This document shows positions 47,093 through 60,189 of a DNA stretch of 64,000 nucleotides, piece after piece. The notes below the pieces were generated by a model that saw nothing but the letters and a program-made list of their open reading frames with translations, was not told the DNA's origin and ran no database searches. A program made the position numbers and the translations under genes. Origin of the DNA: Nitrococcus mobilis Nb-231 (GTDB lineage Bacteria > Pseudomonadota > Gammaproteobacteria > Nitrococcales > Nitrococcaceae); the NCBI RefSeq assembly GCF_000153205.1, contig NZ_CH672427.1, positions 871,671 to 935,670 of the forward strand. The letters are read 5' to 3'. Numbering within the stretch: the stretch's first letter is position 1; the number at the start of each line of letters is the position of its first letter.

Positions 47093-47436
47093 TTACGGCA
47101 CAGTCACCGCTGCTCGGCCCGTGCGTTTACCCAACGAAAGAACTGCCGCCAGGGTTGCTGGCCAGCAGTAGTTATGGGATGCGAAATTGTTCTGTGGCCG
47201 GAAGCGATTCGCCTTCTTCGCGAGCACCGACTCCAAGAGCCGGATCAACTTCCTCGAGTTGCTGCGCGCCGGCGAGAAGCGCTACGTCCTCAACCACCAA
47301 GGGCTCGCCTACCTGCGTGCCCAGGGTTGGCGCAGGCGGTGCTGGCGCAACTACGCGCGCGGTGTCCAGGTAAGCGCACGCCGCGCCGCCACAGATCGGT
47401 CTGTAGGCGAGCAGCTCCGCCGCCGGGTTGCTGGGG
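47093..47436. other. Fragment-rich stretch without an intact gene
   Basis: Between the PLD gene and the IS orfA fragment. A plus-strand frame around 47187-47340 reads RFAFFASTDSKSRINFLELL RAG-like sequence reminiscent of transposase or IS-accessory proteins, but it has no clear start and ends in scrambled sequence. It is most likely IS debris fused to the orfA fragment read from the other strand. Confidence 0.4.
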
Positions 47437-47699
47437 ATAGTGGCGCGTTCGAGCTCGTGCTCGTTCATGGCCGCCGTCTCCAGCACCGCCGCAAACTTGT
47501 CTCTCGCCGTCCAGCCCTCGGGGCCATCGGCATGAACATCGGGCGGGCGCTGGCCGCGATTACGAGCCTGTTTGCGCCAGTTATAGATCATCGCCGTAGA
47601 CACGCCTTCCTCGGCAGCAACCTCGGAGACCGTGCGGTTACTCGGTGGCATCAGCTTGACCAGTGCCGCCGCCCTGCGCTCGTCAGGATACTTGGACAT
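47437..47699 (-). pseudogene. Transposase OrfA (IS3-like HTH) N-terminal fragment
   Basis: The first ~87 residues read MSKYPDERRAAALVKLMPPS, TVSEVAAEEGVSTAMIYNWR, EGWTARDKFAAVLETAAMNE, the helix-turn-helix part of IS3-type OrfA proteins. After NEHELERA the frame continues into sequence of alien composition (antisense to the debris at 47187), so the protein is truncated and no OrfB follows. The ATG at 47699 is the natural start. Confidence 0.7.
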
Positions 47700-47753
47700 C
47701 GTTTCCCCTATCGCCCCCCATCTTTATTAGAAGGATAACTCGGTGACACACAT

Positions 47754-48235
47754 CTATCCTGATAGGGAGAGGGATAGACCAAGGGCTACGCGATCGGGAT
47801 GGTTCAACAGCCTCGGAGCATTGCACTGTAGCGGATAGACAAACACCCGCTTGGGGCGCTCGGGGGTGTTGCTGTAGCCACCCCGGATGCGGCCAAAGCC
47901 GCGGGTCAGGCCCAATTCGAGCCAGTTCGCGGCGCGGTAGACGCCGCCGTGGAAACGACAGGGATCGACAAAAGTCTCCAACAACAACAGCCGATGCCCG
48001 AAGCGCTGTTGCCAATCCGCGGCCGCGCGGCGGGCCAGGTCGCGACGTACCACCGCGTCTCGCCAATCTTGGGCAGCGCGCCGAGGTAATGATGCGCCGC
48101 CATCTGAGCCTGATAGCGAGACTCCTCATGGCGTTCGACCGGGCGGACGATGAGATCGGATAAGATGGGTGCGACAACTGGAAAAGGCTGTGTGATGCGG
48201 TCTTTGTAGCCGCCTGCGATCCAGAAGTTCAGCAA
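47754..48235 (-). pseudogene. DUF4338 (DruA-type) gene with internal deletion and frameshift
   Basis: The 5' part encodes SDLIVRPVERHEESRYQAQM and AAHHYLGALPKIGETRWYV, the start of a DUF4338 domain. About 150 expected residues are missing, and in another frame the 3' part continues DLARRAAADWQQRFGHRLLL, LETFVDPCRFHGGVYRAANW and PKRVFVYPLQCNAPRLLN. DUF4338 proteins include DruA of the Druantia anti-phage system, but many are multi-copy orphan genes. The tail is homologous to the fragment inside the 111-bp element at 42114. Confidence 0.8.
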
Positions 48236-48430
48236 CTGGCCTTAACTCTTTGCTAGGACTGGCCTGTCTGTGTAGAACAAATTAGTCCTGGCCTGAAATG
48301 GGTCCGAGGGCGACAATCTCGACGCGTCGCTGTATCTTGTAAGTAATTCGTTTGTCTCGGACCCCCGCGCCGACGGCGCCGTGTGATTCCACGTCATATA
48401 ACCAGGTATCGCACGCCCCTCCGCGAGGCA

Positions 48431-49135
48431 ATGGAAGTGACCAGATCGTCTCTGCAGCCGCTACGGACGTTCGATTCACCATGCGCTCACCACCTCTCTC
48501 TGGCGGCTTTCCTTCTTATACTCGTGGGCATCAATGCACCAGCGGACTATCAGCCCATCGCCCTAGCGAAGTTATTCGGGGGTTCGGAGCTTATCGTTCT
48601 CGGCACAATCGAGGGTGTCGGTGACGACAGCTTCACCTTGCGAGCGACTGAAGTGTACGCCGGCAGCATCGAAGATGCGCCCGTGGAGGTGAGAAAGTAC
48701 GCGGACTGGACCGGCGGGCGTCGCTGGAGCGCGTATCGCGTCGGCCAGACCGTTCTATTGTTCCTCAGGAAGCCCGCGGCAGACGAGAAGGCCGCCGGCG
48801 ATTACTGGCAGATCAGGGGCTTTGGCGGCGAGGGCGAGATGCCGATAGACGGCGGTGCCGTCTTCCCGCACGGCCTCAACCTCGATGGGTTCCGGCGGCA
48901 GATATTCAAGGTCGATAGCGGTGAACTTTACGGCTATCGCTTCGATCTGGATACGTTCACATCGGCGCTGAAGGGTTACCTGAGTTGCTTCGGTTCGCCG
49001 CAGCAAGCAGCTGCCGAAGGCATCGAAGAGCCGGCACGCGAATGCGCCGACAGTGAGCTTGCATCCTATCGGGCGACATCTGCGTTGCATCGCTATCTGG
49101 CGTCATCAAGATCACGTGATAACCAAGTGAGGTGA
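48431..49135 (+). CDS. Secreted protein of unknown function upstream of the metzincin gene
   Basis: The product has an N-terminal segment with a hydrophobic stretch (HHLSLAAFLLILVGINAPA), which looks like a signal peptide, then a beta-rich region (GGSELIVLGTIEGVGDDSFT, LRATEVYAGSIEDAPVEVRK, YRVGQTVLLFLRKP) resembling an OB-like or small beta-barrel fold. The ATG at 48431 is preferred over the GTG at 48383, though neither has a strong ribosome binding site. It is about 110 bases before the secreted protease gene, on the same strand, so it could be its chaperone, substrate or inhibitor. No family recognised. Confidence 0.55.
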   Translation: MEVTRSSLQPLRTFDSPCAHHLSLAAFLLILVGINAPADYQPIALAKLFGGSELIVLGTIEGVGDDSFTLRATEVYAGSIEDAPVEVRKYADWTGGRRWSAYRVGQTVLLFLRKPAADEKAAGDYWQIRGFGGEGEMPIDGGAVFPHGLNLDGFRRQIFKVDSGELYGYRFDLDTFTSALKGYLSCFGSPQQAAAEGIEEPARECADSELASYRATSALHRYLASSRSRDNQVR

Positions 49136-49243
49136 GTAGACGGCCCCGCCGTTCGCGCGAGAGCGTGGGGGATACAAGGAGAGTCGAGCAGAAATACCGG
49201 GGCAAGAAGCATGGACCACCATGTTCTTATCGGGAGTACTGCC

Positions 49244-51988
49244 ATGCAAGAACAAAATTACCAGGAATGTCCCGTCACCGCGCGATCTGCGGCCGATGAC
49301 GGCCGGCGCAAGCACGAAATCGCGCCTCCGAGGTTCGGTCCTCTGCCAACCATCTTGGCAGGTCTATTGATCAGCTTGTCGATCGTATCGTCCCCGCGGG
49401 CTGCAGTCGTGGACTGCCAGGCGAATCGTCCCGGTGCGGGCAGTGTGCTGTACCTCTACTTCCCCACCGCGACAGACAGCGACTTTCCGGACGATCCCGG
49501 CGGGTGGGGTATCTCCACTTCACCGCTGGAGCCCTTCGATATCAATGACCTCGATCCGGGGGTCGGCAGCACCACGCAATTGCGCAACGCCATCACCGAG
49601 CGGGTGAAGACCGACTACTGTGAGTTCGACGTCCGCGTGGTGCAGACGATAAGCGCCAATGGCACCACGGATCCCCCACCGAGCGATCCGCGCTGGCAGG
49701 TCATCGGCATCGGGTCCGACACCAACCCGGACCTGTTCGGCATCGCCCAGGCCTTCGACGACTTCGACGACAACGAGATGGACTACGCGAGGGTTTGGGC
49801 GGGGAGTTTCGAGAGCTCATTCGGTGGCTCCGGTGGAGCACTGAACGGCGCCAACTCCACCCTCGCACGCTGGGCCAACGCCATCGGCGGCACGATCAGC
49901 CATGAGGGCGGCCACAATTACGGCCCCGATCACCCGGACGCCGCCCCGGTGGGATCCGAAGACGAGGAATCCAATCACCTGATGTCCACACCCTCGGGTG
50001 AGGACCGGGCTCAGGACAGGCACTTCAGCAACACCAGTTTTGAAATCCTAGCGCGAAATCTCGGCCTCTACGAGCAAACCGTCAGCAACTGGGATTTCAT
50101 CAACCCGAACGACAGCACGGCGGATGGCTTCCGGATCACCGTGCTGGTGAGGCCGGCCGACGGTACGCCGACCAAAGGATCGATGTATACGGGCGGTCTC
50201 AGCCCCTGGGGAGACGTAAGCATCAGCGGGGATGGTTCCGAGACCTTCAAAGGTGACAACTACGATCGTTTCATCATCACTTTCACCGCTGCGAAGTCCT
50301 GGGACAACGGCGCCGATGGTCAGATCCCCGCCGGCGAGGAATTCCACGTCGGCGTGGGACTGACGACGGACTATATCGTCCGCGACGTCGAGTTCACCGC
50401 GGGTGGATCGCCCATGGAACTCAAGCCGCGAGTGGTTGGGTACACGACCGGAGGATCCTTCGATCCGGCAACGGGCGGCTTCCACGTCACCTTCTCCAAC
50501 CCGGATCCGGAGAACGGACCGCTGATTCTGTCCGACTTCGTGGTGCGTTACCTGCCACGAACCGTAGACATCAATGAGATGGTGCCCGGCGGTGAGCTGA
50601 AGGGCTTTGATGGTCGGCCGGTAGAGCCGTGGGCCGTCCGCGGAACAGACCAGGACACGTTCACGGTCGTCGACACGACGGATGTGACCGTCGGTAGCCT
50701 GGCAGAGAAACGTGCCGTGGACTTCATCGCCAAGCCCCCGGCCGAATGCGGTCTGATCACGCCGCCGCCCATTCCCGATGCGATTGCACCCAATCGCATG
50801 GAATACTGCCGGAAAGGGCACGTTCTAGGGCTGTTTCCGGCAGCCCGCATCTACCTCGAAGCGACGCTGACCGATCCCCATGCCAGATATTTCGACCGCG
50901 ATCTGCAGCGGTTCGTCGTCGGACCTCTGAAGTCGCGGATCTTCGCACAGCTCTCTGGGGTGACTCCGGACCTCAACGGGAACGGTGTCGACGATGCGAT
51001 CGACATCTCGAGCGGTGCCTGCACGGACCAGAATCGGAACGGCGTGTGTGACGAGGTCGAACCAAGGTATCGGTATTCAGCCAAGGTGGTATGCGGCCTG
51101 CAGAAGGATGCGGCCGGGATGCGACTGGCTCCGGGACGTTACGCCACCGCGATCAACGTCCTCAACGCGAACAACGGCACGGCAAGGTTCAGCAAGACAT
51201 TGTCCCTGACGTTCCCGCCGGATGGCGATGAACCAGGCGAGGTGCTGTCGCTGGGCAAGGATGCGCTGGCCCCAGGCGAGGCGATGGAAGTGGACTGTAT
51301 CGATATCCGTCGGCGACTGTTCCCGACCGGGTTACCGTCCTCCTACCTCAAGGGGTTCGTCGTCCTGCGCAGTGACAAGAGCCTGGATGTCACCGCCGTC
51401 TATACTGCCAGCGGCCTGGTGCATGAGAGCAGGCGCTGTAAGGCTGACGTGGAGTGCTGCGATCACTCCGGCAAGAAGCGCCACTGCCGGCGGAAGCACG
51501 GCTGCTGTGACCAGACTCGCGGGCAGTGCTCGAAGGCGTCCCAGTGCTATCGTTGCGAGACTACCCAGCATGGCACAATCAGTATCGATGTGGAGGACAT
51601 CCGCGAGCGTTCGATCAAGCGTCAGCCGCCCACGTCCAGCTGCCCCGACCTGGTCGTGAGTGAGATAGGCACACCGAAGGTGAGCTGCCCCACCGGGGCA
51701 GGAAGCTGCAAAACCTCGGTTCGTGTCGGGATTGCCAACATAGGTAATGCCGACGCCGGACCCTTCGAGCTGCGTACGGTTTTCGATCCCAGGCAGTCGG
51801 TGGCAGTCACCTCACCCGTCCCTAGCGGGCTGGGGGCCGGGGACAATGCGTCGCTGACGGTGGTGACCCCACCCGGCGGCAATTGCTTCGACCCCAACTG
51901 CACGATTCGCGCGGACGTAGACAGCAACCAGTCCGTCAGCGAATGTGCGGAAGACAACAACAGCCGGGACGAGACAACGCAGGGCTAA
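49244..51988 (+). CDS. Secreted metzincin-like metalloprotease with Ca-binding-type and CARDB-like domains
   Basis: A 914-residue exported protein. After a ~30-residue polar leader a signal peptide is seen (ILAGLLISLSIVSSPRAA). The zinc motif HEGGHNYGPDH (residues ~220-230) fits HExxHxxGxxH/D of metzincins, and NHLMSTPSGED about 15 residues later is a Met-turn. Further on are EF-hand-like loops (TPDLNGNGVDDAID, TDQNRNGVCDEVEP), a cysteine-rich stretch (CCDHSGKKRHCRRKHGCC) and a C-terminal CARDB-like Ig domain (CPDLVVSEIGTPKVSCPTG). It probably degrades extracellular protein. GGGAG precedes the ATG at 49244; an ATG at 49211 is possible. Confidence 0.72.
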   Translation: MQEQNYQECPVTARSAADDGRRKHEIAPPRFGPLPTILAGLLISLSIVSSPRAAVVDCQANRPGAGSVLYLYFPTATDSDFPDDPGGWGISTSPLEPFDINDLDPGVGSTTQLRNAITERVKTDYCEFDVRVVQTISANGTTDPPPSDPRWQVIGIGSDTNPDLFGIAQAFDDFDDNEMDYARVWAGSFESSFGGSGGALNGANSTLARWANAIGGTISHEGGHNYGPDHPDAAPVGSEDEESNHLMSTPSGEDRAQDRHFSNTSFEILARNLGLYEQTVSNWDFINPNDSTADGFRITVLVRPADGTPTKGSMYTGGLSPWGDVSISGDGSETFKGDNYDRFIITFTAAKSWDNGADGQIPAGEEFHVGVGLTTDYIVRDVEFTAGGSPMELKPRVVGYTTGGSFDPATGGFHVTFSNPDPENGPLILSDFVVRYLPRTVDINEMVPGGELKGFDGRPVEPWAVRGTDQDTFTVVDTTDVTVGSLAEKRAVDFIAKPPAECGLITPPPIPDAIAPNRMEYCRKGHVLGLFPAARIYLEATLTDPHARYFDRDLQRFVVGPLKSRIFAQLSGVTPDLNGNGVDDAIDISSGACTDQNRNGVCDEVEPRYRYSAKVVCGLQKDAAGMRLAPGRYATAINVLNANNGTARFSKTLSLTFPPDGDEPGEVLSLGKDALAPGEAMEVDCIDIRRRLFPTGLPSSYLKGFVVLRSDKSLDVTAVYTASGLVHESRRCKADVECCDHSGKKRHCRRKHGCCDQTRGQCSKASQCYRCETTQHGTISIDVEDIRERSIKRQPPTSSCPDLVVSEIGTPKVSCPTGAGSCKTSVRVGIANIGNADAGPFELRTVFDPRQSVAVTSPVPSGLGAGDNASLTVVTPPGGNCFDPNCTIRADVDSNQSVSECAEDNNSRDETTQG

Positions 51989-52037
51989 GCGGTGACCGGG
52001 TCAAACTGAACCACAGCTATATTCTGCTGCGGGCGGG

Positions 52038-52068
52038 AGCCCCGATCGACAGGTCGGGGCTTCTTCTT
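52038..52068 (+). terminator. Terminator after the metzincin gene
   Basis: AGCCCCGA (52038-52045) pairs with TCGGGGCT (52054-52061) over an eight-base loop, followed by TCTTCTT. Position 50 bases after the stop codon supports a terminator. Confidence 0.65.
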
Positions 52069-52228
52069 GAGCTGCGCGGAGTCGAATTCGAGCCTGACGC
52101 GATACGCGAGCATCAGCGCAGCGGCGATCTGACCCGCTTTCACGGGGTATTTGCGCCGAATAGCAAACACCGCGCACTGGTGGCATCGGCGGGCCTGTAG
52201 TCGAGGTGAATTTGAGTGGCGCAATGCC

Positions 52229-52320
52229 GGCCCGAGGCACTTCACGGGTCAGACCAACGGCCGACCGACGAAAGCGAAGATGGGGTGCTGTCGAAGGAAA
52301 GGCCATCTATACTGCTTATA
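52229..52320. repeat. Imperfect ~90-bp direct repeat, left copy
   Basis: From GGCCCGAGGCACTTC to TCTATACTGCTTATA, matches the segment at 54913-55001 at roughly 70% by eye with a short gap. It sits about 190 bases before the 781-residue protein gene. The rest of the 51989-52504 stretch, apart from the terminator, holds no clear gene. Confidence 0.55.
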
Positions 52321-52504
52321 TCAATCGGCTGCAAGTTCATAATACGCTCTAGATCTTCTGCCATCATCAGCACCAGCCGCAGCGCCATCCTGGGCGTGGT
52401 GCCATTGCGACGCACCGCTTGCGCCAGATCGCTGCCGGCCGCCGCCCTAGCGATATCGCCGGATACCTCGGCCGGACGCTGACGAAGAGGGAAAGGAGGA
52501 CGAG

Positions 52505-54850
52505 ATGATCTCCTCGGACTTCGAGTACCGGCTCTACAGCGGCTCCGTAGCCGGGGTACCCATCGACCTGGCCCTCGCCACCGAGCTGAACGAGTTCATC
52601 GGCGGCCTCCGGCTCGCCACCGGGCGATCGATCCGCGACCAACTCGCCGACTTCTTCGCCGATCAGAACCTCACCTGGAGCTTCTTCGGAAACGAGTTCG
52701 ACCTTCGCCCCACCATCGACGACGCCATCGCCAACGTCGATGCCGCTCTCACCTTCGACCCCATCGAGCTCTTCTTGGGCCAAGGGCGCTGGCCGCTGAT
52801 CGGCCCCGTTTACGCTCGGCTGCGCTTCTACTTCGTGAGCGGGTTCGAGCTGCGGCTGCCCGAGGAGAAGGCCCTCGCCAACTGGCCCGACCTGCCGGCC
52901 CTGTTGGATCCGGACGCCGACCAGCTCCGGATCCAACTCAACGTGGAGCAGATCAGCTTGCTCGACGCGGGGCTCCGGGTCCATATATACAACCCCTTCA
53001 AAAACGAATGGCCTGAGCTGTTCACGGTGCCGCTGCTCTCGGGCACCGGGCTCTACGACGTCGCCACGCGAGTGGCACTCGGGCTCAGCGTCGAGCCGGA
53101 TGCGTATGTGATCGGCGCGGGCACGGGCCAACGGTTTCGGCCCGTCGTCCCGACGATTCTCCAGCGCGACTCCACCATCGACCGTGCCGAGTTCCGCTTC
53201 GGCCAGGTAGACGAGTGGGTGATCCTGGCGCTGGGATTCCTCTTCGGGCTGATGGGCACCCTCACCGCCGTGTTCCTGAGTCAGCTGCAGGTGGCGCTGG
53301 GCGAGCGGGTGCTCCAGAAAATCGAGGACGATCTCGAGGCCAAGCTGGCGGAGATCGACACCCCCACGATCTTCGATTTCCCCTCCATCGCGAAGTACGG
53401 GGCGGCCTTCGAGCGCCCGGTGACGGAGCAGGTGACCTTCGAGTACCGGCCGGGGATAGACGTCGTGGGCGGGCCGCAGAACCAGCGTGCGATCCACTTC
53501 CGGCACGAGGAGCCGGAGGATCCGCCGGACGGCGGCGGGTTCGACCCTCGCGATCTCTTCGACCCGGACAGCTTCACCAACCCGTTCGACCGGATCCACG
53601 ACTACGTGGACGTAGGCGACCTAATCGTGGACCTGTTCGACGTTTACGTCCCGATCCCGGACTACACGACGGCCATCGTGCCCCGCCAGGAAGTGGACGC
53701 CGCGGTGAGGCAGCTCGCGACCCCCCGCTTCCGCCTCCGCGACCGCGCCCTCCTGCACCTCCTGGCAGACGGGCTCCCTGCGCCGCTCCTGAGCGGGCTC
53801 CGCTGGTCCCAAGTGGACGTCCGCCGGCGGATCGTCGAGATCGGACCGCAAGGACGTACCCGGAGCCTCAAGATCAGCGCAGAGAGCGCAACGACGCTCC
53901 GGCTCTGGCGCGAGGGCCAAGCCCGATACCTGGCGCTGCCTGCCCTCCGGAATAGCCCGACGCGAGTCTTTCCCACTCCACAGGGCCTGCCCTTGGGTGA
54001 CCGCGGCATCGTCGCGGTGCTGCTCGCCTATGACCGATGGAAGGACATCCTGGACGGCTGGGAGGATCCGTGGGCCGAGCGGTACCGTACGGCCCCGCCC
54101 CTGCCGGACACGCTCGACACGCTCCTCGCCCTAGGCTATGCCGTCAACTTCGTCGTCCCCAACGTGCAATATGCCTTCCTCCACGCCGCGGACGGCTTCG
54201 CCCTCGTGTCGCCGGAGCTCGCGACCACCGATTACACCGGGGTCTACCCCCTGCCCCCGGACCAGGAGTTCGTCGTCCGCGCTCTCACGCCGCCGGACCC
54301 GCCACCGGTCGAGTTCTTCGACCCGACCGATCGCCCTCGGCTACGGCTCGCCACCCTGCCGCTGGAGCTGGAGCTGGCCGGCGCTGTGCAGGCACCCCTC
54401 CGGGCCACCGCGCGGGTCCGCGCCGATCTCGCGATTCGATTCCATCGCTGCCCAAGCTGCGTGGCCGGAAAGGAGGACCTGTTCCAGGACCTGCTCCGGA
54501 ACCTGCTCTGTCTCCAGGACGTGGGTCTGGTCGAGCTCCAGGGCAACCCGGCCGAGTTGCTCCAGTGCCTGATCCACCGGCACGCGATCGCGCTGATCCC
54601 GAGCGCCGAGGAAGGGGCAGCGACGGTCGAGAGCGTCGCCATCGACGACCCCGGGGGCTTCCCTCCAGGGTCGGCGGCGGAGTTGGCGGCGCTGCTCACG
54701 GCGACCCTGCCGCTCGTGCTCAGCCGAGCCATCCCGGTGCCCGTCCTCTTCGACTTCTTCCACCGGATTCCACTCGGCTCGCGCAACCGCGAGGCCGAGA
54801 CCCTGGCGGCGAAGAGCGGCTGGTTAACGCTGGTGCAGCCGCTGGTGTAG
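52505..54850 (+). CDS. 781-residue protein of unknown function with a degenerate recombinase-like segment
   Basis: No family recognised for the whole. Residues ~1-230 are acidic and look like a beta-rich domain (ELFLGQGRWPLIGPVYARLR). One hydrophobic helix lies at ~238-265 (WVILALGFLFGLMGTLTAVF). Residues ~407-500 resemble the first half of a tyrosine recombinase catalytic domain (RDRALLHLLADGLPAPLLSG, LRWSQVDVRRRIVEIGPQGR, TRSLKISAESATTLRLWREG), but the catalytic Arg is absent ('GLPAP') and the HxxR...Y half is missing. AGGAGG is followed closely by the ATG. The reverse-strand frame over the same bases has no natural composition. Confidence 0.6.
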   Translation: MISSDFEYRLYSGSVAGVPIDLALATELNEFIGGLRLATGRSIRDQLADFFADQNLTWSFFGNEFDLRPTIDDAIANVDAALTFDPIELFLGQGRWPLIGPVYARLRFYFVSGFELRLPEEKALANWPDLPALLDPDADQLRIQLNVEQISLLDAGLRVHIYNPFKNEWPELFTVPLLSGTGLYDVATRVALGLSVEPDAYVIGAGTGQRFRPVVPTILQRDSTIDRAEFRFGQVDEWVILALGFLFGLMGTLTAVFLSQLQVALGERVLQKIEDDLEAKLAEIDTPTIFDFPSIAKYGAAFERPVTEQVTFEYRPGIDVVGGPQNQRAIHFRHEEPEDPPDGGGFDPRDLFDPDSFTNPFDRIHDYVDVGDLIVDLFDVYVPIPDYTTAIVPRQEVDAAVRQLATPRFRLRDRALLHLLADGLPAPLLSGLRWSQVDVRRRIVEIGPQGRTRSLKISAESATTLRLWREGQARYLALPALRNSPTRVFPTPQGLPLGDRGIVAVLLAYDRWKDILDGWEDPWAERYRTAPPLPDTLDTLLALGYAVNFVVPNVQYAFLHAADGFALVSPELATTDYTGVYPLPPDQEFVVRALTPPDPPPVEFFDPTDRPRLRLATLPLELELAGAVQAPLRATARVRADLAIRFHRCPSCVAGKEDLFQDLLRNLLCLQDVGLVELQGNPAELLQCLIHRHAIALIPSAEEGAATVESVAIDDPGGFPPGSAAELAALLTATLPLVLSRAIPVPVLFDFFHRIPLGSRNREAETLAAKSGWLTLVQPLV

Positions 54851-54912
54851 AGGATATGGCCACTCGGATGACGGGGTGGGAAAGGGGGGGCGGATTCGGG
54901 CCATGGAAAACC

Positions 54913-55001
54913 GGTCCGAGCCACTTCGCGGATCAGATCGACGATCGGGCGCAGGCGAGGAGATGATTCTGTCGGACGAGAAGGGGTCTATACTGCCTAT
55001 A
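54913..55001. repeat. Imperfect ~90-bp direct repeat, right copy
   Basis: From GGTCCGAGCCACTTCG to TCTATACTGCCTATA, aligned with the left copy at 52229-52320. It ends in the same TCTATACTGC-TATA string, which looks promoter-like. The remainder of 54851-55377 has no convincing gene; a frame open from 55096 lacks a usable start until 55378. Confidence 0.55.
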
Positions 55002-55377
55002 CGTTTCGAGGTTGAGCGCCGGTGGCCCAACGGAGCGAACGTATGGTGGTGGAATCCGAGGACAGGGCTCATGACCAAGCACGGCGCCGGAACGCTTGGG
55101 TCGAAAACACAGCAGCGTGCCGCGCGGCAATTCAACGAACAAGATAGTTTTTCAGATCGTTCAGACAAACGTCAGTTCGCCGTTGGGCACACTGCTTTTG
55201 CTCAGAAAGAGGCCGTCTCGCGAACCTGTGACCCACTGGGCCGCCAATCGCTACAAGCCGGGAGACGTGGAGCATGCCACCGCCCGCGACCCGCTTCTCC
55301 GCATCACGCCCAAAGAATCCGACGAGCCAGTGGCGCTTCACCGTGCCCGCGTATCTGTCGCAACGGAGGGAATCAGC

Positions 55378-56757
55378 GTGACGCAACAACAAACCGCCAT
55401 CGCAACTCGGATCGCCGATCTCCGCCTCACCGGATTCCCCGGATTAAGCTCCACCGCTTCCTTGCTCCGTGAGCTGCTGGACACGCCGGCCGCACTGCGC
55501 GAAGCGGTCAATGCCTCGGATTGGCCACGCACCGAGTTGTTGGGAATTCGCAGCATGGGAGTGGGATACGCAGCGCTACGCGTCTTTCAGGGCACCGAGA
55601 GAATGGCGACCCGCCGGCTGCGAACTGCCAGAGAGATCGATGGCGATCTCGCCGTATACCTGGATCAACCGGCCGGGGCTGACGGCCGCGGGTTGGCAGC
55701 AGGGCTCGGACGGGGTAACCATCTTCCTCCGCACGGTCACGACGTGGCGATCGTGAGTCTGTCCCGAGGTCTGCTCGGTGTCGTACACGCAGCGTTCAAC
55801 CTCACACTTCGCTCGGTACAGTCGGAGTCTTCAGCGCACTTCCACACCGAAACCACAAACGCGTTTCAGCGTATCGTCGAGGAGGTGGAGGCGCTGATCC
55901 GCGCCGGCCAGCTCCGGATTTACCACCGGATGACGTCTCGGGCCCCAACGGACGACGTGGTAGAGGAGGCCTGCGCGTTAGCCGGCATCATCGAGCAGAG
56001 CCTCCCGCGCCTCGCGCGCCCTCAGGCCAAGGTTTTCGTGGCGATGCAACGGCTCCGCGAAGAGGGAAAAGGCGGCGCCGCCGAAAATCTGGGCCGCCTG
56101 GCAATGCGTGCGGGGGCCCTGACCCGGGAAGCGACCGCTGCCCACGCGGCGAGTTACCGCATTGCCCTGAACCTGCTCAGGGATGAACCAGACGTCGACG
56201 TACTCGAGCTATACGACAAGGCGGCCGACCTCGCGTTCGACACGAAGCTCCCCAACGGCAAGGACACTCAACTCGCCCATATGGGCCGGCTCGAGGGGGG
56301 CGAGTTCGTCGAGGTGGAAGGCTTTGCAACGCGGGTGGAAGCGATTCAGCCAGGGGGCAGCGGGCTGGTCAGCCGCATCGAACTGCTCGACCCTTCGAGC
56401 CAAACCCGCGCGAGGGCGGCGGCGCTATTCATGCACCTGCCCCACCTGGGCGTGACTGACGGGGCCTTTTGCCGTCTGAGCGGGATTTTCCGCAAGAACT
56501 CTGCGCTGCTGGATGATTCGCCAGGCATCGAAGTGGATAGACTTTCGTTGGCAGATCTCAGTGACAAGAGTTGGCGAATCGCTTTTCTTAGATCCGCGAG
56601 GCGCTGGTATCAGCCGTGGCGAAACGGGCTCAATATGCACTGGTCGCTTGGTCCGCACCAGAGCGCGGCAGAGCCCCGCCGTCAGGCGAGCGTCGAAGGA
56701 GCCGGCGAGTTGATTTATCTTGATTTCATGAAGGATCTAATCGATCAGGGCGAGTAA
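55378..56757 (+). CDS. 459-residue protein of unknown function, possible OB-like domain
   Basis: The GTG at 55378 follows GGAGGG by seven bases and is chosen over longer frames from 55096. Residues ~100-140 hold a histidine-rich segment (GRGNHLPPHGHDVAIVSLSR). The middle is helical with many Ala and Arg. Residues ~310-400 look like a small beta-barrel (EGGEFVEVEGFATRVEAIQP, LVSRIELLDPSSQTRARAAA, TDGAFCRLSGIFRKNSALLD), comparable with OB-fold nucleic-acid-binding domains. No signal peptide. It is followed after 80 bases by a small coiled-coil gene and then the transglycosylase-like gene, all in the same direction, so an operon is plausible. Confidence 0.55.
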   Translation: MTQQQTAIATRIADLRLTGFPGLSSTASLLRELLDTPAALREAVNASDWPRTELLGIRSMGVGYAALRVFQGTERMATRRLRTAREIDGDLAVYLDQPAGADGRGLAAGLGRGNHLPPHGHDVAIVSLSRGLLGVVHAAFNLTLRSVQSESSAHFHTETTNAFQRIVEEVEALIRAGQLRIYHRMTSRAPTDDVVEEACALAGIIEQSLPRLARPQAKVFVAMQRLREEGKGGAAENLGRLAMRAGALTREATAAHAASYRIALNLLRDEPDVDVLELYDKAADLAFDTKLPNGKDTQLAHMGRLEGGEFVEVEGFATRVEAIQPGGSGLVSRIELLDPSSQTRARAAALFMHLPHLGVTDGAFCRLSGIFRKNSALLDDSPGIEVDRLSLADLSDKSWRIAFLRSARRWYQPWRNGLNMHWSLGPHQSAAEPRRQASVEGAGELIYLDFMKDLIDQGE

Positions 56758-56838
56758 CCCTCCACCGCCCTGGCCAGCGAGCCAGCTGCGCGGGCGGTCT
56801 CTTTTCGATTCCAGTCCACGGGGGTAAGGAGGTAGGCA

Positions 56839-57144
56839 ATGTCCGGTCCGTGCGAAGAACTGTACGACACTTTCGAGCAAGACTATGCCGCGTTCCAAAA
56901 TGCCCGTGATCAGCTTGCCGCGGCGGAGGAAAGTGTCTGGCTCATAGAAAGCGGTATCCCTTTGCATTGCAAGGGGAGCATACCGAGCGAAGACCCCGAA
57001 TGCACCGGCCTGTCACAGCAGCTCGGCGAAGCGCGGGCCGAGCTGGAGGCAGCCCAGCAGGCCGCCGACGAGGCTGCAAAGAAATCCGGCCAGTCGTTCT
57101 TCGTCTATTTGGCATGCAAGATCAAACATTTCTTCGAGGATTAG
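56839..57144 (+). CDS. 101-residue coiled-coil protein with paired cysteines
   Basis: AAGGAGG is nine bases before the ATG, so this small gene is clearly translated. The protein is helical and acidic with heptad-like Ala/Leu/Glu runs (DQLAAAEESVWLIESGIP, LGEARAELEAAQQAADEAAK) separated by a short loop containing Cys (LHCKGSIPSEDPECTG), suggesting a helical hairpin. It ends with a basic aromatic tail (VYLACKIKHFFED). No family recognised. It lies between the 459-residue protein and the transglycosylase-like gene. Confidence 0.65.
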   Translation: MSGPCEELYDTFEQDYAAFQNARDQLAAAEESVWLIESGIPLHCKGSIPSEDPECTGLSQQLGEARAELEAAQQAADEAAKKSGQSFFVYLACKIKHFFED

Positions 57145-57175
57145 GCGTGCGCATCGTCGCAGACGAATATCCGCT

Positions 57176-57215
57176 TACAAGAATGTCACCCGCCCATGCC
57201 GGTGACATTCTTGTA
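57176..57215. promoter_or_regulatory. Perfect 15-bp inverted repeat before the transglycosylase-like gene
   Basis: TACAAGAATGTCACC (57176-57190) and GGTGACATTCTTGTA (57201-57215) enclose ten bases. There is no T-run, so it may be a regulator operator or an RNA hairpin between the 101-residue gene and the downstream gene, rather than a terminator. Confidence 0.6.
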
Positions 57216-57306
57216 CTGAAACCGGTGCCACGCCACAGTCCTAGAAGGAGCGGATGGGCTGCGTATGCCGTACGCGCCCGTTCCGTGAACGGATTCAGAG
57301 TGCATC

Positions 57307-58692
57307 ATGCGATTCGTTGCAAATCTGCGCAATGAGACCATCGAAGCATTTGCAACGGAATCGATTCAGCCGCGCGCTTACCTGCTTTCATCCCACCGAC
57401 TAACCCCGGCCACACTAAAAGCCGCGGAAAAGATACGGGCGCTGGGGCTACCGCTGTTCGCGGACAACGGCACCAAGCCCATGATCGACGCTACGATCGA
57501 CCATTTCGCCGAACCGGCAAAACGATTACGGACGGAGGTCAAGCAGCTGCGCAAGGCGCTCGGCCATGTGCCCCGCGGCGCGGGCGTTCCGGCCGTATTG
57601 AGGGACCGGGCTTCACGACTCGCCCAGGCGGTGCTGGACCATACCCTCGAAACCTCGGAGGCCATCGACGCCGAAGCGCTATTGACCACCCAGCTATCGA
57701 TGCTGCCGACCGATCTCATCGCTCAGGAGGATTTTGCAACGGCTTGTCTCATCGCGCTGGACCTGGAGCGGGAGACGACCGGGTGGCGGGTCTCCCGATT
57801 CGACACTCGCAACCGGCGGACGCTACGGCTCTGGAAGCGCGTCGCCAACGATACCCGCTGCAAGGGAATCCGCGTACACGCGGTCTTGAGCGCTATGGAT
57901 TACAACACGGCACGCTCTGCAGGCAGGCTTGCCGCCCGGGCGGGAGTACGGCACGCCGCGGTCGGCATCGCCGGTATCACGCGTGACCCGAGCGCGACGG
58001 ATTTCTTCGTCATGGAAACCAAGAGCATCAGGCTCGCGCGACCCGTGCCGCGGCGCTACGTGCGGCTGGCTCAGATCATTCGGGGCTTTGCGGAGGGCTT
58101 CGGTGAAGCCGGACGACCCCCCGAAAGCTTTCACTGCCTGGGACTGGGAGCACCGTATCTGTTTCCCGTCACCGCCGCGGCGCTGGCCGAAGCGACGCGC
58201 GCCACCACGGATGCGACAAGCCCCATACACGCCGCTGTAAGAGATCGCGTGCTCTACGACCCGGTGAAAGACGGCGATCGCGCAAGCACCAAGGAAATCG
58301 TCGATCGCATCGTCAGAGGCGGCGACTGGCCGTTTTTGAGCCCGTTCACACGCGCCTTCCGCGAGAAGTTCGGACACGATCCCGAGGCGGCACGGAAGGC
58401 TTGGGCGGCGCTGGGAAAGCCCGCGATCACCAGGCAGCTGCTCGAGGTAGCAAGCCCGTTGACCGCCTCCTTGCCGCTTTTCGCCGACGCTGATGACGAG
58501 GTACGGAAAATCGCCGCGCGAGCATGGATTGCGCACAATCATTGGGTCCTTGGCGCGATCGCCGACAGCTTGCCGAATGAGAAAGGACGCCGTGACCTGG
58601 CTCTTTCCGTCATCGACAGATTGCTTTCGAACCCGCCGACGATGACAACACGCGGCCTCGCTGCCGCCCGCGAGGTTATCCTCAGCGATTGA
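57307..58692 (+). CDS. tRNA-guanine transglycosylase/DpdA-like protein
   Basis: The 461-residue product resembles the TGT superfamily TIM barrel. LPLFADNGTKPM (residues ~49-59) matches the first active-site Asp strand (TDSGGF in TGT). HAVLSAMDYNTARSAGRLAA and HAAVGIAGITRDPSATDFF fit the central strands. FHCLGLGAPYLFPVTAAALA (275-294) followed by TTDATSPIHAA (Asp302) matches the LGxG...D nucleophile region. The zinc-binding cysteines of bacterial TGT are not visible, as in DpdA, which inserts 7-deazaguanines into DNA. The function is inferred from motif similarity only. A C-terminal ~150-residue helical region follows. Confidence 0.5.
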   Translation: MRFVANLRNETIEAFATESIQPRAYLLSSHRLTPATLKAAEKIRALGLPLFADNGTKPMIDATIDHFAEPAKRLRTEVKQLRKALGHVPRGAGVPAVLRDRASRLAQAVLDHTLETSEAIDAEALLTTQLSMLPTDLIAQEDFATACLIALDLERETTGWRVSRFDTRNRRTLRLWKRVANDTRCKGIRVHAVLSAMDYNTARSAGRLAARAGVRHAAVGIAGITRDPSATDFFVMETKSIRLARPVPRRYVRLAQIIRGFAEGFGEAGRPPESFHCLGLGAPYLFPVTAAALAEATRATTDATSPIHAAVRDRVLYDPVKDGDRASTKEIVDRIVRGGDWPFLSPFTRAFREKFGHDPEAARKAWAALGKPAITRQLLEVASPLTASLPLFADADDEVRKIAARAWIAHNHWVLGAIADSLPNEKGRRDLALSVIDRLLSNPPTMTTRGLAAAREVILSD

Positions 58693-58772
58693 GGGCGGTG
58701 CGAGCGGGACGGATCGGCAGAGGCCAGATACCAGGCGAGTTCCGGCACGGCCTGGATGGGGCCGGCCATGGC

Positions 58773-59406: not shown

Positions 59407-59628
59407 TCAGTCCAGAGGGTCGATTTTCCCGGGTGACTCCAGACGCTTCGCACGTCTCCAGGCTTCTCGCAGCTCGGATTGATGCAGCAAGGCCCACTCA
59501 ACCACAAGCCCTTGCGCTCTCGCTGGAAGATGTCCATGGAGCACGGCCAACGTATCGATAGCGACAACAACCTCGTGCCCGCCGTATGAGGCGTGGAAAT
59601 GAGGCGGCGCATGGTCATCGAAGTACAT
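59407..59628 (-). CDS. DUF4160 protein, copy B (N-terminus shifted)
   Basis: The 73-residue frame begins MYFDDHAPPHFHASYGGHEV and continues VVAIDTLAVLHGHLPARAQG, LVVEWALLHQSELREAWRRA, the complete C-terminal part of DUF4160. Upstream of it LCRFYGIIIR is present in phase, but a one-base deletion relative to copy A (GACTC for GAGCTC) puts the normal ATG out of frame. Translation may still begin at the internal ATG at 59628. Copy A has the opposite damage: intact start, broken end. Confidence 0.7.
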   Translation of the reverse strand: MYFDDHAPPHFHASYGGHEVVVAIDTLAVLHGHLPARAQGLVVEWALLHQSELREAWRRAKRLESPGKIDPLD

Positions 59629-59658
59629 ACGAATAATGATCCCGTAGAATCGGCAGAG

Positions 59659-59943
59659 TCAGGCATCTGCGATCAGCGTCCGCGCACCCGGCATCACCTC
59701 TTCGACGGATTTGCCAGTGAGCTGCATATAGAGCGCATCCGGGCAAAGCTCCAGGTCCTCGCCCCATGCGATCGCTCCAACTTCTGAGACGTGCACCGTT
59801 TCAAAAAATGCCCGCTTGTTCCAAGCCTTGAACACACCGCGGCCAGCCAGATGAGACAAATCGATCTCTCCCATCGTGCCATCAGAATACCGCAGCCAGA
59901 TTCGGTAGCCGTCTCGGGCTTCCACGTCAGCCGGCCGGATCAT
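59659..59943 (-). CDS. DUF2442 domain protein, copy B
   Basis: A 94-residue DUF2442 protein with an intact start: MIRPADVEARDGYRIWLRYS, GTMGEIDLSHLAGRGVFKAW, HVSEVGAIAWGEDLELCPDA. It is nearly identical to copy A at 41067 but has CGG where copy A has a TAG at codon 3. It precedes and slightly overlaps the DUF4160 frame, the usual gene order for this pair. Confidence 0.85.
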   Translation of the reverse strand: MIRPADVEARDGYRIWLRYSDGTMGEIDLSHLAGRGVFKAWNKRAFFETVHVSEVGAIAWGEDLELCPDALYMQLTGKSVEEVMPGARTLIADA

Positions 59944-60189
59944 GCCCCCTCCGTTACACGCTCATCCTGTTTGAACATTTTGCCTCCTTTAGACTGAAGG
60001 GCCGCTTGGCGATGCATTCAATGCCGTACTCTGCGCCGCCGGGCACGACATCCGGTTACTGCTGTAGACAATAACCAATCTTTTGCGCCGATTTTTTTAG
60101 ACGATTCTAAAAATCCATTTACCCTAGAGCAATGGTTCGTCCATTCCACTACGCTGCTTCAATGGCCGCTTAGCATTACCCAGACGGGA

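Follow-up and report, generated by a model that had tools for sequence, protein, structure and literature searches.

The catalytic residues of tyrosine recombinases are named as R, D/E, K, H, R, H/W and Y in the text excerpts of PMC10516654, and Table 3 of that paper gives Arg, Asp/Glu, Lys, His and further residues. Complete recombinase folds that work as repressors are already known. In MrpR (YopR) of prophage SPbeta the catalytic Arg is gone (its table gives V137/S138), and yet the protein binds DNA, as described in the excerpts of PMC10516654. SroF of phi3T is another recombinase-fold repressor, which is likened to the protein described here by the title of its structure only. In plants, the excerpts of PMC3537659 describe ALOG domains as a tyrosine-recombinase-type piece taken over for another use. 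The subject of this report is a gene of Nitrococcus mobilis Nb-231 located at positions 52505-54850 (+ strand) of a 64,000-nucleotide stretch of contig NZ_CH672427.1, called the window from here on. Its 781-amino-acid product, P0001, resembles in one segment the first half of a XerD-type catalytic domain.

Over about 115 residues, P0001 shares with XerD and XerC the core residues RD and GL, the G and R of the hairpin, and F, and probably also the order of helices and strands. Unlike these enzymes, it carries Pro in place of the Arg and the Lys, the core-binding domain and the HxxR/Tyr half were not found in it, and the segment is embedded in a 781-residue protein of other make-up. With MrpR it would share a recombinase fold that has no working active site (PMC10516654, excerpts), whereas MrpR has both domains of the fold and P0001 appears to hold a half-domain only, for which DNA binding is putative. 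The likeness to ALOG domains lies in the reuse of a recombinase-derived piece (PMC3537659, excerpts), in plants and not in bacteria. The account that we favour, with moderate confidence, is that a lineage-specific gene on a strain-variable segment captured a recombinase fragment, which would now be a non-catalytic module.

Coding status of the gene and its resemblance to XerD

The features on which this account mainly depends are the following:
52505-54850, + strand: orphan gene of 781 amino acids (open frame, codon usage, Shine-Dalgarno-like GGAGG before the ATG)
53684-54034, + strand: resemblance to the first half of a XerD-type catalytic domain, residues 394-510 (profiles, hhalign, alignment, models)

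The open reading frame (ORF) has 781 codons, starts with ATG and is preceded by GGAGG just upstream. Its start, stop and length are as given in the first-pass annotation, which a model had made from the sequence, and both GC by codon position (0.72/0.44/0.88 at positions 1/2/3) and codon usage back its coding status. The codon-usage score was trained on ten window genes of known families, which themselves score 0.12-0.38; it is 0.31 in the frame of the gene, the two remaining forward frames have 0.02 and -0.24, and the long antisense frame 52367-53599 has 0.11. This is a real coding gene. The score before, within and after the recombinase-like stretch is 0.31, 0.26 and 0.33, respectively, so the ORF is a single gene of even make-up.

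The first part of the Xer catalytic domain can be aligned to residues 394-509 of P0001. The whole protein had no match in Pfam or NCBIfam and two in PHROGs (E 0.26 and 0.78). When residues 386-532 were cut out and searched alone, Pfam gave Phage_integrase PF00589 (E 0.25, 11.5 bits, below the curated cut-off of 27.1), and a second Pfam run on the segment gave 11.7 bits and E 0.23, also below this cut-off. The same cut-out matched three Xer models of NCBIfam (E 0.017-0.027) and the integrase family phrog_1 of PHROGs (E 0.042), and in the PDB the XerD chains came first (E 0.086 and 0.13), ahead of mannose-6-phosphate receptor chains (E 0.27 or worse).

Searches of genomes with full-length P0001 are less open to hindsight than searches with a cut-out segment. 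Rows at residues 382-515 made up 6 of the 8 non-own rows among 398 genomes of the phylum, 8 of 11 among 40 relatives and all 5 among 369 genomes of the class, and the frames matched there are Xer or integrase genes. The best of these matches, from the class genomes, has 45% identity over residues 400-494 (95 residues), with E 1.3e-6 for one genome.

A combined Xer profile was built from 30 XerD and 29 XerC proteins, which were fetched by NCBIfam model independently of any likeness to P0001 (29 of 30 XerC loci were used; the one left out has no motif of the kind used for picking frames). P0001 scores 13.6 bits with this profile at residues 408-509, and the top of 3,000 whole-protein shuffles is 3.9; the segment alone scores 18.6 bits, and the top of 5,000 shuffles is 10.5. 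The fetched DNA, 851,410 bases, yields 4,565 frames of at least 80 residues; ranked together with these, P0001 comes 82nd of 4,566, and all 81 frames above it come from recombinase loci; the highest frame from any other locus reaches 8.2 bits. An earlier Xer profile, built on loci picked with P0001, gave 28 bits, which is inflated and is not used as evidence of strength. Moreover, hhalign of the segment with Xer gave a probability of 60% (P 8.8e-5); none of 150 shuffles exceeded 8.9%, and none of five other pieces of P0001 exceeded 1.9%. The first-pass annotation had read residues ~407-500 as similar to the first half of a phage integrase catalytic domain, and this resemblance holds beyond shuffles and non-recombinase ORFs. 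Homology of residues 394-509 to the XerD-type catalytic half is likely on these comparisons, though unproven.

Residues kept and lost, and the predicted fold

The alignment A1 has 30 rows, namely P0001 and 29 Xer proteins. All of them agree in eight columns (R, D, G, L, L, G, R, F), and the core-packing residues that P0001 retains are RD and GL, the G and R of the hairpin, and the F of 'VFPT'. The catalytic Arg I of 'GLR' is Pro425 in P0001 and the beta-hairpin Lys is Pro448, and the 29 Xer rows all have Arg and Lys in these columns. The acidic residue three after the Arg of GLR is replaced by Leu428. We take the catalytic Lys column of A1 to be the one placed within GKGxK.

The second half of the catalytic domain was searched for with a second-half profile from 59 Xer proteins, which gave no match in P0001 or in residues 496-640. 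A hidden second half after residue 500, tempting by eye from 'HAADGF...TTDYTGVY', was rejected on this lack of signal. Concerning the N-terminal core-binding domain, the Xer profile aligns only from its position 134 on, and residues 1-395 have no Pfam match. The loss of the Arg and the lack of the HxxR/Tyr half, both claimed in the first-pass annotation, are thus borne out. Recombinase activity of P0001 is predicted to be very unlikely, since the catalytic Arg and the hairpin Lys are Pro and no HxxR/Tyr half was found; the segment 394-509 would not be expected to cut or rejoin DNA.

Regarding structure, AlphaFold on the whole protein without relatives was uninformative (mean pLDDT 34.7). The segment modelled with the 29 Xer rows as alignment reached pLDDT 81.4 and pTM 0.76, from an input that leans towards a Xer answer. 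XerD was the top match of this model in the PDB by Foldseek (E 2.3e-4), and VIA-align gave XerD a Z of 12.5 (rmsd 3.1, 122 residues, 19% identity). Helices of the alignment-free whole-protein model agree with those of the segment model at 99 of 122 positions, which is equalled by 2 of 122 circular shifts, the unshifted one included. The full-protein model proposed in the first-pass annotation brought no usable fold beyond this agreement of helices in the segment, and the absence of a recombinase-like fold, which that annotation had set as the outcome that would count against it, was not what the segment model showed; this is a weak result, as the alignment behind the model consists of Xer relatives.

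Several points weigh against a captured recombinase fragment. By library-wide standards the resemblance is marginal, and every curated cut-off was missed. With a XerD-only profile, P0001 (9.6 bits) is overtaken by one overlapping frame at a xerC locus (12.4 bits), and a XerC-only profile gives it just 4.3 bits. Composition-adjusted tblastn against five recombinase loci found one of them (L122, E 0.007) and missed 4 of 5 at E <= 0.1. Since many proteins times many families could have been noticed, a P of about 1e-6 for a single family does not settle the matter. The segment model shows that the sequence of P0001 fits a half-XerD fold, not that this fold is compelled, because the rows of its alignment were Xer proteins.

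Some of these points are what would be expected if an Arg/Leu/Ala-rich helical stretch in a GC-rich gene matched the Xer pattern by chance, a rival that we consider unlikely, though not negligible. The library scores below cut-off and the failures of composition-adjusted BLAST are in line with it, and so is GC at the second codon position, which rises in this segment alone (0.53; the other parts have 0.39 and 0.47). Chance fits less well with a combined-profile score that no shuffle and no non-recombinase frame reached, with a match that is colinear over ~115 residues through several motifs, and with genome searches that converge on recombinases. The first-pass annotation had offered either an exapted recombinase fold or chance; a real, dead, Xer-derived half-domain is preferred moderately here, and exaptation, in the sense of a new use, would be a further, putative step.

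The rest of the protein and its genomic setting

Outside the segment, one further feature of P0001 should be listed:
53216-53278, + strand: strongest hydrophobic stretch, possible membrane helix, residues 238-258 (mean hydropathy up to 2.27 over 19 residues)

It is the only long hydrophobic stretch of the protein, and a helix at 237-283 in the low-confidence whole-protein model spans it. The earlier description of the rest of P0001 as unrelated and with a membrane helix is in agreement with these data, and no recognised domain was found beyond the recombinase-like segment. The parts outside the segment had no Pfam match at E <= 10, the N-terminal part had none in the PDB at E <= 10, and the C-terminal part matched there unrelated chains only (E 0.15 or worse). 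No internal repeats between parts of P0001 were found beyond shuffles. A lipid-binding tubular (TULIP/BPI-like) fold, suggested by eye from the C-terminal pattern, received no support from Pfam, the PDB at E <= 10 or a literature search, and a defence function was dropped, PADLOC giving no match.

P0001 also stands as the large orphan protein that it was said to be. A search of its own genome returned only itself, phages gave nothing better than E 0.7, and nothing was found in plasmids, in GTDB contigs by 8-residue words or in viral contigs by three in-frame scans. The N-terminal 395 residues gave only two weak non-own rows among 54 genomes of the order (E 0.01 and 0.09), and the C-terminal rows L004 and L005 of the search in the phylum lie in regions whose frames include no evident relative (rows L017, L019 and L020 of the search in the 40 relatives were outside this inspection). 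According to these searches, a P0001-like gene is known so far from one genome. No neighbour of known function shares an operon with it.

The surroundings of the gene differ between strains, and three features describe them:
52227-54910, + strand: ~2.7 kb absent at the same site in the same-genus genome G399 (edges placed to within a few tens of bases)
52227-52320, + strand: left imperfect direct repeat, ending in TCTATACTGCTTATA
54911-55001, + strand: right imperfect direct repeat, ending in TCTATACTGCCTATA

In contig 48 of G399, the counterparts of 48292-52259 and 54923-58719 adjoin, with 83-93% identity, and the ~2.7 kb between them is missing. The extra stretch has a GC content of 67.1%, against 61.3% for the window. 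The two repeat copies are 70% alike, with the gene between them, and G399 has a single copy. The comparison of two genomes is compatible with either an insertion or a deletion.

This setting bears on the idea of a decaying fusion: a fragment of a mobile-element integrase would have become fused in frame with a second gene, where it serves no function while the gene as a whole drifts. It would suit a strain-variable gene flanked by direct repeats, with a transposase-like frame and multi-copy stretches in nearby DNA. It is improbable in view of 781 open codons, the strong codon bias of all three parts and the ribosome-binding site, and the other integrase half has left no trace in P0001.

The repeat core AAGGNNNTYTATACTGCYTATA was searched with up to 2 mismatches in 54 genomes. 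The own genome has 9 occurrences, each of four same-genus genomes 3-8, a further genome (G425) 10 and each of two others 1, and none was found in the remaining 46; the reversed core pattern gave 1 match. In 69 of the 369 class genomes there is at least one match, mostly a single one at 2 mismatches, so matches at this level have a background; exact matches were found only in the own genome (8) and in G766 (2). This is a dispersed repeat family enriched in the genus. The repeat is ~90-130 bp long and ends in the near-palindrome AGGCGGTTTATACTGCCTATA (the two copies above; also L117 and L155-L169). Homology between copies usually ends ~25 bases past the beginning of the core and may extend hundreds of bases upstream, and after many copies a long same-strand ORF starts within 5-840 bases. 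The repeat may be a promoter with an operator or the end of a mobile unit. Rfam gave no match at E <= 1 over 52000-55300.

A near-palindrome in the direct repeats could also suit a DNA-binding regulator of the MrpR kind, which would act through a dead recombinase fold on the repeat bracketing its own gene. The segment model matches the structures of MrpR, YopR and SroF (Z 7.1-9.3; Foldseek E 0.08-0.25), and MrpR, whose recombinase fold is non-catalytic, binds a repeated element (PMC10516654, excerpts). However, MrpR keeps both domains, and in P0001 the core-binding domain and the second catalytic half were not found. Furthermore, none of five other genomes that carry the repeat (the four of the same genus and G425) shows the gene, the sole row there being a recombinase in G401. 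We regard this regulator as very improbable.

Other observations concern the neighbourhood. The DNA at 47461-48297 is multi-copy, with copies of up to 97% identity elsewhere in the genome, and adjoins a transposase-like frame (47172-47699). The frame 49211-51988 encodes a 925-residue protein with a weak Peptidase_M66 match and a clear CARDB match, and its DNA is 93% conserved in G399. A 937-residue protein that follows another copy of the repeat, at L117:9909-12722 (- strand), has a HEAAH-containing stretch that we take to resemble DUF4157. Finally, the stretch 59538-59994 recurs, at 87%, at another place in the own genome (G000:C1:912613), and part of it is also in G400.

Possible origin and role of the segment

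In the favoured account, of a captured and now non-catalytic fragment, P0001 would have acquired long ago the front half of a XerD-type catalytic domain (~394-509). The fragment would have kept its core-packing residues and lost the catalytic Arg, its acidic partner and the hairpin Lys, with no HxxR/Tyr half in evidence. One hydrophobic helix would hold the protein at the membrane by insertion, and the segment may have a binding or structural role, as a non-catalytic docking module for DNA or a partner protein. Docking is a guess, perhaps the most likely single role and still a doubtful one. Since MrpR keeps DNA binding without an active site, according to the excerpts of PMC10516654, docking on DNA is the first role to consider. 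A bolder version, for which we see very little likelihood, is that membrane-anchored P0001 docks via its half, dead XerD domain on the repeat of the genus (AGGCGGTTTATACTGCCT-like) or on the Xer/FtsK machinery of the cell, and that it moves as a single-gene segment inserted at the repeat.

P0001 is a curiosity and not a new system. It is a caution that integrase-like matches below cut-off can sit in proteins that are not recombinases, and if the resemblance were due to chance, P0001 would be an instructive case of a domain call that convinces and yet is false. If the captured fragment is real, it would mean that the catalytic domain can be divided, with the Arg/Lys part on one side and the HxxR/Tyr part on the other, and that the first of them can be reused inside a large unrelated protein.
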